Shown in pieces: positions 11,433 through 14,621 of a DNA stretch of 27,511 nt. Position 1 is the stretch's first letter. Each line of letters starts with the position of its first letter. The notes below the pieces were generated by a model. That model was not told the origin of the DNA and searched no databases. It saw only the letters and a program-made list of their open reading frames with translations. The DNA comes from a virus. The stretch spans positions 1 through 27,511 of the IMG/VR virus record IMGVR_UViG_3300030331_002327, one strand, 5' to 3'. Both the position numbers and the translations under genes were made by a program.

Positions 11433-12284
11433 CTAATCGTGACATAAACAATCTAAACTTTCTTCATGTTCAAATAAATTAAGTTGATTTTCTTTTAAAG
11501 TTTTCATTTCAGCAAACGAAATATCATATTTAAATGTTTTTTTTGTTTTATTTTCTTGTTTTATCCACCAATCAGCAAGTTTTGGTTGTTTACTCATTAT
11601 GTGCATAAGTTGTTTTTTTCCTTTTAAAAAACATAAATCACAATTACCTAATATTGTATGTCCATTCGATGCAATTAAATTTAAATCAAAGTTATTATTA
11701 TTCCAAAAATTTTGCACATCATGTTTTGTTGTTTTTGCATCGTACAAAGGACATAAAAAATCTTGATTTTCTTTTCTTGCTTTTACCCTATGTACTCGGT
11801 GTGGTTCGTCAAATCGCAAACCTAAAATATGATCTGGATTTTCTAAATTATTAATTTTTTCAAACCATTTAATTGCTCTTTGTTTTAACAAAAAAGTGCA
11901 GAAACGATTTGTCATATTAGGTAATTTTTTATAATAATTAATTAATTTTTCAAAAGGTTCACCATTTCGTGAACATTGATCAAAATTTGTTTCTTTGTAT
12001 TTAAATTTCCATTCTCTGCTTGTTTCGTTTGGTTTATACCCATCAGACTGAATCGAATCAAACTCAATCCAATTAATTTTGACATTCCATTTATTTTGGC
12101 AATCTTCTACAAAATTATACGTTTGATCAATTTCTTTTCCAGTGTTTGCAAAAACAACATGGCAATTTTTTGGCAAAACATTTTCGTGTGCTTCTAAAAT
12201 TTTTTTTAACATAAATCCAGATGTGCGACCCCCACTAAAACTTATGATGGAATCGTTTTTTAAAAAAAATGGGTTTTTAATCAT
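11433..12284 (-). CDS. PP-loop ATPase of the PAPS-reductase family
   Basis: 283 residues, notably AT-rich with many Lys, Asn and Phe. The PP-loop SFSGGRTSG is at residues 15-23. Further family features: VVFANTGKE, an NRFCTFLLKQRAIKW stretch (C129, a C-x-x-x-L-K region that binds substrate in this family), GLRFDEPHRV, and a Cys-rich C-terminal part (C178 in FLCPL, C215-x-x-C218 in GNCDLCFLKG, C279-x-C281 at the end) that may hold an Fe-S cluster or zinc. The family activates sulfate or adenylates tRNA/DNA substrates. In a phage, DNA or tRNA sulfur modification or a nucleotide role are possible; none is shown. It overlaps the Q-like gene by 4 bases. Confidence 0.8.
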   Translation of the reverse strand: MIKNPFFLKNDSIISFSGGRTSGFMLKKILEAHENVLPKNCHVVFANTGKEIDQTYNFVEDCQNKWNVKINWIEFDSIQSDGYKPNETSREWKFKYKETNFDQCSRNGEPFEKLINYYKKLPNMTNRFCTFLLKQRAIKWFEKINNLENPDHILGLRFDEPHRVHRVKARKENQDFLCPLYDAKTTKHDVQNFWNNNNFDLNLIASNGHTILGNCDLCFLKGKKQLMHIMSKQPKLADWWIKQENKTKKTFKYDISFAEMKTLKENQLNLFEHEESLDCLCHD

Positions 12285-12952: not shown

Positions 12953-13333
12953 TCAATTATATGATATTGGTTGATATAACTCGTCTCGCTCCATCTTTTT
13001 AAATTCTTCTCTGTAATGCTTTGAAATTTCTGCTCTTAACGCCTTATTTGTTTGCATTTTCACATTCCATTTTTCGCGTAAAATATCTAAATGTCCTTTT
13101 CCTAAATATGTCTCTAGCCAATTAGTGAACTCTAATGGGTTTTCTGTATATTTGCGATGACAAGAATGACACATACATACTGCATTATCTAAACTCCATC
13201 GCACTGATTTGGCAGCTCTACCGAAAATATGACAACACTCCATTCTGCCTTTTTGATGACAATTTTCGCACGTATAAGCGGCTTTCGCTCTGACAACATC
13301 GCTAAACCATTTATCAGCTGCATCTCTTTTCAT
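12953..13333 (-). CDS. HNH-type zinc protein, NinG-like
   Basis: 126 residues. The N-terminal half carries two Cys pairs (TCENCHQKG with C22/C25; VCMCHSCHRKY with C55/C58) that would bind zinc, and between them ECCHIFGR with H35, then N50 and H59, the arrangement of an HNH nuclease core. The pattern C-x-x-C ... C-x-H-I-x-G-R ... N-x-x-x-x-C-x-x-C-H resembles lambda NinG/Rap and related HNH proteins. It overlaps the methyltransferase 3-prime end by 20 bases. With NinB-like and Q-like neighbours a recombination role is more likely than a homing nuclease, but this is inference. Confidence 0.72.
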   Translation of the reverse strand: MKRDAADKWFSDVVRAKAAYTCENCHQKGRMECCHIFGRAAKSVRWSLDNAVCMCHSCHRKYTENPLEFTNWLETYLGKGHLDILREKWNVKMQTNKALRAEISKHYREEFKKMERDELYQPISYN

Positions 13334-14141
13334 TTTGCTCTAACAACTTTTGATTTAGTGTCAACCATGCTTTTGCAGCTGTTTGGGGAACGACTCCGTT
13401 GCCCAATAATCTAAGTCTGTCCACTTTGTAGGGATACCCATCATCTGCTCTACCCATTCTGGGTTTAAGTCGTGCATTTTCCCAATTATGGGCTTTACTT
13501 CCTCTTTTTGCGGGAAAATCCTTACTTGAACTGGTAGACCAGGTGAATCTCGATTGTGCGCTGACGCAATATCTCCATCGTCTCTTGAATCTCGCGCCAC
13601 TGGCGTAGCCCAAAATAAAAACTCTTTTTCTGTGGTGACTTGCTCCAACTTCACTCGCTGAGAATATTCCAAACGTGCTTGCATAACCCATTGACTCCAA
13701 ATCTTCGATGACATCTCGCAATCCAAGTGTGATATGTCCTTCAACATTTTCAAAGAAACACCAAATAGGTCTAATTGTTTTGATGTGTTCTCGTATGTAC
13801 TCCCAAAGGTGTCTTGGGTCTTTGTTACCTCTTCTTTTACCACCAGTTGCCAATGAGAATGGTTGACATGGATAGCCTCCAGTAATGACGCTAACTTTGT
13901 CTCGAAAGATGTGCGATGGAAAGGTTTTAATATCCGAGTAAATAGTTGCTGCATCCAACTGATTCGATTCCATCTTAGCAACCAAGTTTGCAATCGCGTA
14001 AGCTTCGATCTCCACATAAGTGATGACTCGATGTTTAAACCCAGCAATGTCAAGTCCTCTTTCGATTCCACCATATCCAGAGCAAAATGAGAGGACAGTG
14101 GGTGCGTTTTTGGTATGATCCACATAACTAGTTTTTTCCAT
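13314..14141 (-). CDS. DNA (cytosine-5) methyltransferase
   Basis: 275 residues with the expected motifs in order: I SFCSGYGGIERGL (about 18-30), IV GGYPCQPFSLATGG with the catalytic C92, VI FFENVEG (129-135), VIII ASHHRKRVFILG (167-178), and X LRLLGNGVVPQTAAKAW (243-259). The target recognition part between VIII and X is short. The motif IX/X block GRADDGYPYKVDRLRLLGNG matches the common phage form. It would methylate C5 of cytosine in a short specific sequence, protecting phage DNA from host restriction. A second long frame overlaps the gene (see 13361-14170). Confidence 0.93.
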   Translation of the reverse strand: MEKTSYVDHTKNAPTVLSFCSGYGGIERGLDIAGFKHRVITYVEIEAYAIANLVAKMESNQLDAATIYSDIKTFPSHIFRDKVSVITGGYPCQPFSLATGGKRRGNKDPRHLWEYIREHIKTIRPIWCFFENVEGHITLGLRDVIEDLESMGYASTFGIFSASEVGASHHRKRVFILGYASGARFKRRWRYCVSAQSRFTWSTSSSKDFPAKRGSKAHNWENARLKPRMGRADDGYPYKVDRLRLLGNGVVPQTAAKAWLTLNQKLLEQNEKRCS

Positions 14142-14170
14142 CTAAAAAATTTTCTCTGTGATTCCTTCAA
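13361..14170 (-). CDS. Overlapping reading frame across the methyltransferase gene with its own methyltransferase-like C-terminus
   Basis: A 269-codon frame, +1 relative to the methyltransferase frame, runs over the gene without a stop, beginning with a TTG codon. Its first two thirds look like a shadow. Its end does not: FWATPVARDSRDDGD (from residue 186) and LNPEWVEQMMGIPTKWTDLD (235-254), then a short FPKQLQKHG tail, fit the W-x-T-P-x-A-x-D and L-N-P-E-W-V-E-x-x-M-G-x-P-x-x-W-T-D-L motifs that end another class of phage C5-methyltransferases. Both C-termini lie on the same DNA. Whether this frame is translated, alone or by a +1 shift from the main frame, is unknown. Confidence 0.35.
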   Translation of the reverse strand: MKESQRKFFRWKKLVMWIIPKTHPLSSHFALDMVESKEDLTLLGLNIESSLMWRSKLTRLQTWLLRWNRISWMQQLFTRILKPFHRTSFETKLASLLEAIHVNHSHWQLVVKEEVTKTQDTFGSTYENTSKQLDLFGVSLKMLKDISHLDCEMSSKIWSQWVMQARLEYSQRVKLEQVTTEKEFLFWATPVARDSRDDGDIASAHNRDSPGLPVQVRIFPQKEEVKPIIGKMHDLNPEWVEQMMGIPTKWTDLDYWATESFPKQLQKHG

Positions 14171-14621
14171 ACCTTGGGTCTGTTAATTGATATTTCTGCC
14201 CCATTACTTTTTTAAAATCAGACATATATTGACTCATTTCAGCGTTTGTCATCAGTGAGGTGACGGGCAGAAAATCCATCGCTGTCATTTTTTCCTCGTA
14301 GGTTACACAAACTTTTTCTAAACGTAACCAATGCTCATTAAATTTGTCATGCTGTCTCATAATTGGGACACCCCATTTATATTTGGCAAGTGCCTTCACC
14401 TCTCCTGGTGTATATTCCCCACCTTGTTTAGAAACATCTGCATACCATCGATGACTCAAATTATTGATTGCTTTTGATCGAGATATTTTTCTATCACTGA
14501 CTTTTACAAAAAGTGGTTTATCTTTTGATAGCTCTAACTTATTGAGTTCATTGACAAAATTTTCTCTTTGCCATTCGTTAGTTAAATAATATGGGAATTG
14601 CATAAGACCTAAACTAGACAA
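14142..14621 (-). CDS. NinB-like recombination protein
   Basis: 159 residues. It begins MSSLGLMQFPYYLTNEWQRE; the core has KPLFVKVSDRKISRSKAINN and LSHRWYADVSKQGGEYTPGE, then VKALAKYKWGVPIM, which corresponds to the NinB family layout (V-x-I-x-x-x-K-x-R-S-x-x-Q/I-N-x-L-x-H-x-W-x-x-x-I/V-x-x-Q). NinB binds single-stranded DNA and works with the Red/ORF pathway in lambda. It overlaps the 87-residue HTH gene by 8 bases and ends next to the methyltransferase start. Confidence 0.65.
   Translation of the reverse strand: MSSLGLMQFPYYLTNEWQRENFVNELNKLELSKDKPLFVKVSDRKISRSKAINNLSHRWYADVSKQGGEYTPGEVKALAKYKWGVPIMRQHDKFNEHWLRLEKVCVTYEEKMTAMDFLPVTSLMTNAEMSQYMSDFKKVMGQKYQLTDPRFEGITEKIF

Follow-up and report, generated by a model that had tools for sequence, protein, structure and literature searches.

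Why should one viral methyltransferase gene carry methyltransferase signatures in two overlapping reading frames? The locus that raises this question lies in a stretch of viral DNA of 27,511 nucleotides (IMG/VR record IMGVR_UViG_3300030331_002327), which was analysed at its full length and is called the window here. A preliminary description of the sequence had reported two overlapping ORFs, the second of them open for 269 codons, and had offered three explanations: an old split of the family with both frames still constrained, a +1 shift that makes a second isoform, and an independent overprinted protein. The coordinates and the frames of the signatures were confirmed. Both ORFs are on the minus strand, the main frame at 13314-14141 (275 aa) and the +1 frame at 13361-14170 (269 aa). 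GRADDGYPYKVDRLRLLGNGVVP sits in the main frame, and FWATPVARDSRDDGD and LNPEWVEQMMGIPTKWTDLD sit in the +1 frame. The DNA had also been described as AT-rich; the window has 42% G+C, so it is mildly AT-rich only.

Motifs in the two overlapping frames

The features of the locus are listed below, with alpha for the product of the main frame and beta for that of the +1 frame.

13314..14141, minus strand: putative alpha subunit, a C5-cytosine methyltransferase with motifs I-VIII and X and without IX (PF00145; phrog_363; AF2)
14141 and 14123, minus strand: predicted alpha starts, ATG at 14141 (275 aa) and an alternative GTG at 14123
13361..14125, minus strand: putative beta subunit, +1 frame, within alpha, 254 aa from ATG 14125 (frame constraint in relatives; phrog_1008)
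13361..14170, minus strand: entire +1 open frame, first possible start TTG 14170 (ORF listing)
14120..14125, minus strand: candidate double start ATGTGG, with the beta ATG (14125) and an in-frame alpha GTG (14123) (start-site comparison)
14067..14087, minus strand: alpha motif I, FCSGYGG (alignments A1/A5)
13863..13871, minus strand: alpha motif IV, catalytic PCQ (invariant in A1 and A5)
13743..13751, minus strand: alpha motif VI, ENV (E and N invariant in A5)
13611..13637, minus strand: alpha motif VIII, HHRKRVFIL (R171 and R173 invariant in A5)
13386..13403, minus strand: alpha motif X, GNGVVP (alignments A1/A5)
13580..13615, minus strand: beta FWATPVARDSRD, W-x-T-P module (W172 and T174 nearly invariant in A3)
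13409..13468, minus strand: beta motif IX, LNPEWVEQMMGIPTKWTDLD (aligns to the in-frame motif IX of single-frame relatives)
14142..14621, minus strand: NinB/Orf-like gene upstream (phrog_72, 6.5e-14)

The PF00145 match covers alpha residues 16-202, and the comparison of alpha with phrog_363 gave 5.9e-54. No motif IX-like sequence was found between alpha motifs VIII and X in the main frame of the window. In profile comparisons, alpha aligned to motifs I-VIII of single-frame enzymes and the C-terminus of beta aligned to their motif IX (prob 78%, E 1.8e-5). The +1 signature had initially been taken for the C-terminus of another methyltransferase. We replaced this reading with one enzyme whose motif IX would be in beta and whose motif X would be in alpha. 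The +1 signature is a true methyltransferase element, and the most fitting role for LNPEWVEQMMGIPTKWTDL is that of motif IX in this one enzyme rather than the end of another. The W-x-T-P module of beta is often repeated in longer relatives.

Comparison with synonymous shuffles

One explanation of the overlap is that it is a fossil or a product of chance: an old frameshift split the family, and nothing but base composition or the constraint on alpha keeps the +1 frame open. The conserved residues of alpha do partly force residues in the +1 frame, for example W from ATGG. When the window sequence was shuffled with the alpha protein preserved, however, about 7 stops arose in the +1 frame, whereas the real beta is uninterrupted (0), and the frame was open across codons 6-259 in 1 of 20,000 such shuffles. 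A motif IX-like match in +1 was obtained in 4 of the 20,000 shuffles and WxTP in 303, and the two together in none. For 28 of the first 31 loci, the longest +1 run beat the locus's own synonymous shuffles at p < 0.01. Given the main protein, the motif and the openness of the +1 frame both exceed chance. We give the excess of beta-frame identity over shuffles no leading role among the evidence, since shuffling removes common ancestry as well.

Division of the motifs in relatives

Viral contigs were searched for relatives with both alpha and beta; further relatives came from annotated phage records and from bacterial genomes, the latter with beta alone as the query. Motif X was present and motif IX absent in the alpha frame of 220 of 260 distinct alpha genes, in homologue sets that were chosen by similarity and are partly redundant, with motifs called by patterns and start codons predicted. 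The state of the +1 frame in homologues had been set as a refuting test in the preliminary description, and the frame was not riddled with stops: from motif IV to X it was stop-free in 190 of these 220 relatives, with a mean of about 0.2 stops in +1 versus about 12 in +2. About 14% of the relatives have at least one +1 stop, and some of these cases are perhaps assembly errors or decayed copies. The single-frame controls L034, L346, L347 and L348 carry motif IX in the alpha frame and do have stops in +1 (3-8), which argues against the fossil or chance explanation.

The bacterial-genome loci found with beta come from many bacterial phyla. An alpha ORF was present in 80 of the 80 loci fetched by this beta-only search, and 60 of 65 distinct ones had motif IX in +1 with motif X in the alpha frame. 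Every one of the 63 betas in the alignment matches phrog_1008, which is labelled 'DNA methyltransferase'. No DNA-level relatives were found in plasmids and phages by blastn. The tblastn search of the full +1 ORF against phages yielded 4 records only, and beta is therefore too divergent for a single-sequence search. Among the deposited records, SOVA965 and Ssp-JY39 have only the beta frame annotated, and others have alpha only.

Selection on both frames

The second codon position of beta is the third codon position of alpha. The main frame does not vary normally at synonymous sites over the overlap, a point on which the preliminary description had rested its other test. In relatives whose beta starts inside alpha (the short-beta group, on which this test rests, the alpha N-terminal region of the long-beta group being unusable as a non-overlap control), the divergence of alpha four-fold sites was 0.51 before beta and 0.30 in the overlap over motifs IV-VIII. 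The contrast holds (paired Wilcoxon p 8e-6) with protein identity at 0.76 in both regions. For the same group, the recognition/IX stretch gave a divergence of 0.23. The d3/d1 ratio was 2.17 outside the overlap versus 0.94 in the recognition/IX stretch, where third-position changes fell below first-position changes. Around motif IV the alpha frame is better conserved than the beta frame (0.90 vs 0.50), and around motif IX the beta frame is better conserved than alpha (0.77 vs 0.60).

These patterns indicate that both frames are coding and under selection. The depressed synonymous sites of alpha and the higher conservation of beta around motif IX also speak against a fossil or chance origin of the open frame, which we consider extremely unlikely. 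The constraint on both frames was retained from the earlier idea of an old split, and a recent frameshift is not favoured.

Start of beta and overlapping start codons

The relatives fall into two classes by the start of beta. In those of the Lactobacillus/Paenibacillus type, 80 stops versus 69 expected fall in the +1 frame before motif IV; this is the expected level and places the start of beta within alpha. For the window's group, this region is open in 69 of 73 versus 26.7 expected, with 16 stops versus 80, and therefore beta runs from about the alpha start (long-beta). In the window, the coding part of the +1 frame probably begins at ATG 14125 rather than at TTG 14170.

The reach of this constraint bears on a programmed +1 frameshift after motif VIII, by which a second isoform with the N-terminus of alpha and the C-terminus of beta would be made. 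Such a shift would join the frames in the right order, and the T-rich GTTTTTATTTTG, which had been put forward as its site, occurs in the window and in L002. However, the site is not conserved, being absent from L005, L006, L044, L049 and L010, and the product would be without motif X. Moreover, beta has conserved start codons and Shine-Dalgarno sequences of its own. Constraint on the +1 frame also begins well before the proposed shift point, and in the window's group it reaches back as far as the alpha start; a shift further downstream therefore cannot explain it. The second isoform was abandoned as very unlikely.

With beta read from its own start, the leaders of the long-beta class show a recurrent arrangement. 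The sequence RTGTGG offers RTG to beta and, two bases on, GTG to alpha, and the beginning of beta (M/V-W-I/L) is conserved. Among 94 loci with a single possible alpha start, this start is GTG in 49; AT, GT or TT precedes 43 of the 49 (about 9 expected, 3 in 16), and 41 of those 43 loci are long-beta with the beta start at -2. RTGTG was found in 77 of 145 long-beta loci, and 27 others have starts 5 nt apart. A Shine-Dalgarno sequence precedes 61 of 89 sites; at a control position placed 60 nt further upstream, the count was 6 of 89.

Kohl et al. (PMC9841429) showed that both frames can be initiated at AUGUG or GUGUG behind one Shine-Dalgarno sequence. The aligned spacing for dual initiation was 12/14 with AUGUG and, with GUGUG, 12/14 or above; the single earlier example of two bacterial proteins known to these authors was Thermus rnpA-rpmH. 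In our leaders, made non-redundant at 70% alpha identity, the spacing peaked at 12 for ATGTG sites (10 of 23 with a strong Shine-Dalgarno) and at 13 for GTGTG sites, 14 of 15 of which lie within 12-16. Shuffled leaders gave a flat distribution of about 7% per position. The observed peaks match the spacings published for dual initiation. In many long-beta relatives, a single ribosome-binding site seems to be shared by two start codons that overlap. It is likely that in many phages and prophages the two subunits are co-initiated at ATGTG or GTGTG behind a single Shine-Dalgarno sequence, which would be a widespread natural case of ambiguous initiation that yields two full-length proteins, with overlaps of up to 1,456 nt (L069, with a beta of 486 aa and an alpha of 491 aa; median 912 nt).

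Leader and neighbourhood in the window

The leader in the window reads TTTTTTAG ATGGAAAAAACTAGTT ATGTGGATC. ATGTGG is at 14125-14120, with the frames open from both start codons, and the Shine-Dalgarno sequence before it is weak in the window and its clade. The TAG stop of the NinB/Orf-like gene abuts the alpha ATG at 14141. In this clade alpha may use that upstream ATG, and both proteins of the window are perhaps served by coupling to the NinB-like gene. The nearby genes include PAPS reductase, NinG, NinB, an O-like replication protein, terminase, portal, tape measure and Erf, which suggests a lambda-like phage. The phosphoadenosine phosphosulfate reductase-like gene (11433-12284, minus strand) adjoins the late-regulator and NinG genes and is possibly a DNA-modification or defence-related moron.

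A putative two-subunit methyltransferase

Beta might also be an independent overprinted protein, for example with a role in anti-restriction or regulation, and no methyltransferase subunit. Its N-terminal half is without methyltransferase similarity. No Pfam family or solved homologue was found for beta, PDB sequence searches gave nothing convincing, and AF2 of beta alone was poor (pLDDT 59). The poor model of the lone protein might fit an obligate subunit, although it proves nothing. On the other hand, the single conserved motif missing from alpha is present in beta and is homologous to the one that single-frame enzymes have in frame, and alpha accompanies beta at every locus of the bacterial beta search. 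An independent function for beta, the closest of the three options in the preliminary description, is thus improbable, and beta is better read as a subunit of the same enzyme.

The AF2 model of alpha, built from an alignment without rows from the phage record collection, had a pLDDT of 80 and was confident over the catalytic core and motif X. The value was below 50 over most of residues 202-241; the +1 frame of the same stretch leads up to and includes motif IX. Foldseek of the alpha model returned DNMT2, M.HaeIII, M.HhaI and DNMT1.

On these sequence comparisons, the locus very probably encodes one two-subunit C5-cytosine DNA methyltransferase of the M.EcoHK31I type in overlapping frames. Alpha would be the large catalytic domain, which binds SAM and contains motifs I-VIII and X; beta would add motif IX and perhaps some of the target-recognition region. 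By analogy with what was reported for M.EcoHK31I, the two would assemble into the active enzyme. The enzyme would methylate the phage DNA, most likely against host restriction, a role that we infer because of the general role of phage methyltransferases. As for its history, an ancestral single-frame enzyme may have undergone frame changes that put motifs IX and X in different frames. The front part of beta would then have been overprinted on motifs I-VIII, and the alpha linker between VIII and X on the recognition region and motif IX.

Unusual relatives

Several relatives depart from this layout. In six related loci (L290:2692, L326:1651, L339:2691, L291:2721, L314 and L316:2690), a simple repeat occupies one and the same position, after the motif VIII region and before X. 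The repeats are G8, G9, G9, an AG repeat and, twice, an AC repeat. Past the repeat, alpha and beta both continue in the next frame, with motif X found in +2 and another motif IX in frame 0. The repeat has the appearance of a phase-variation tract, by which the two overlapping proteins would be switched together.

In L008, L073 and L091, motifs IX and X are both in the +1 or beta frame and alpha has motifs I-VIII only, an M.AquI-like order in overlapping frames, which would be another outcome of the frame changes. In L202:1353-2276, the alpha frame has motif IX and the +2 frame has X, and the frames appear to be swapped after motif VIII. Very long, fully overlapping pairs were observed in L069, L072, L079, L096 and L208, with betas of 434-486 aa. 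The number of W-x-T-P modules tends to rise with the length of beta (r 0.49), and in the longest ones several recognition modules were perhaps duplicated in both frames at once. In phage Llama (L039:1498-2257), comparison with phage Spikelee (L038) shows that an indel splits alpha, which is annotated as two DNA methylases.

Significance and comparison with known systems

Long same-strand overlaps of two functional proteins are, to our knowledge, considered rare in prokaryotes. The relatives point to a large and diverse family in which one gene would give two subunits, a layout that is common in phages and has mostly been missed or mislabelled by annotation. The long-beta class provides natural material on how ribosomes choose between overlapping start codons. 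Such methyltransferases, when cloned with an altered leader or with one-frame codon optimisation, could seem dead or mis-specific.

M.EcoHK31I recognises YGGCCR, and its beta, of about 176 aa, has its start inside alpha. This beta is said, after work by Lee, Kam and Shaw in 1995, to be encoded within alpha in another frame. The large subunit of M.EcoHK31I contains motifs I-VIII and X and the small subunit motif IX, and the predicted recognition domain was placed in the large subunit (PMC3404938). The window resembles this enzyme in having an alpha with motifs I-VIII and X, a +1 beta with motif IX, and a beta gene nested in alpha. It differs in that the beta of the window, at 254 aa, extends from close to where alpha begins, with start codons that overlap or lie nearby. 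The division of subunits is thus already known from M.EcoHK31I, whereas the long-beta variant that spans the whole of alpha was unexpected.

Bacteriophage Lily (NC_028841) is alike in that gp62 is a C5-methyltransferase and gp63, deposited as 'g62 internal gene', is an annotated internal +1 gene with motif IX. Its beta is short, however, with 163 aa, and starts shortly before motif IV rather than at the alpha start. M.AquI is likewise a C5-methyltransferase of two polypeptides (PMC3404938), but its small subunit has motifs IX and X, whereas the window keeps X in alpha. With E. coli pqiA and tamA and with Thermus rnpA-rpmH (PMC9841429), many long-beta relatives share two overlapping or adjacent starts near one Shine-Dalgarno sequence, at a spacing that would permit initiation in both frames; in the window this Shine-Dalgarno sequence is weak. 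The second products of E. coli pqiA and tamA are peptides of 10-15 aa, whereas here two full-length proteins would be made, with a median overlap of about 900 nt.
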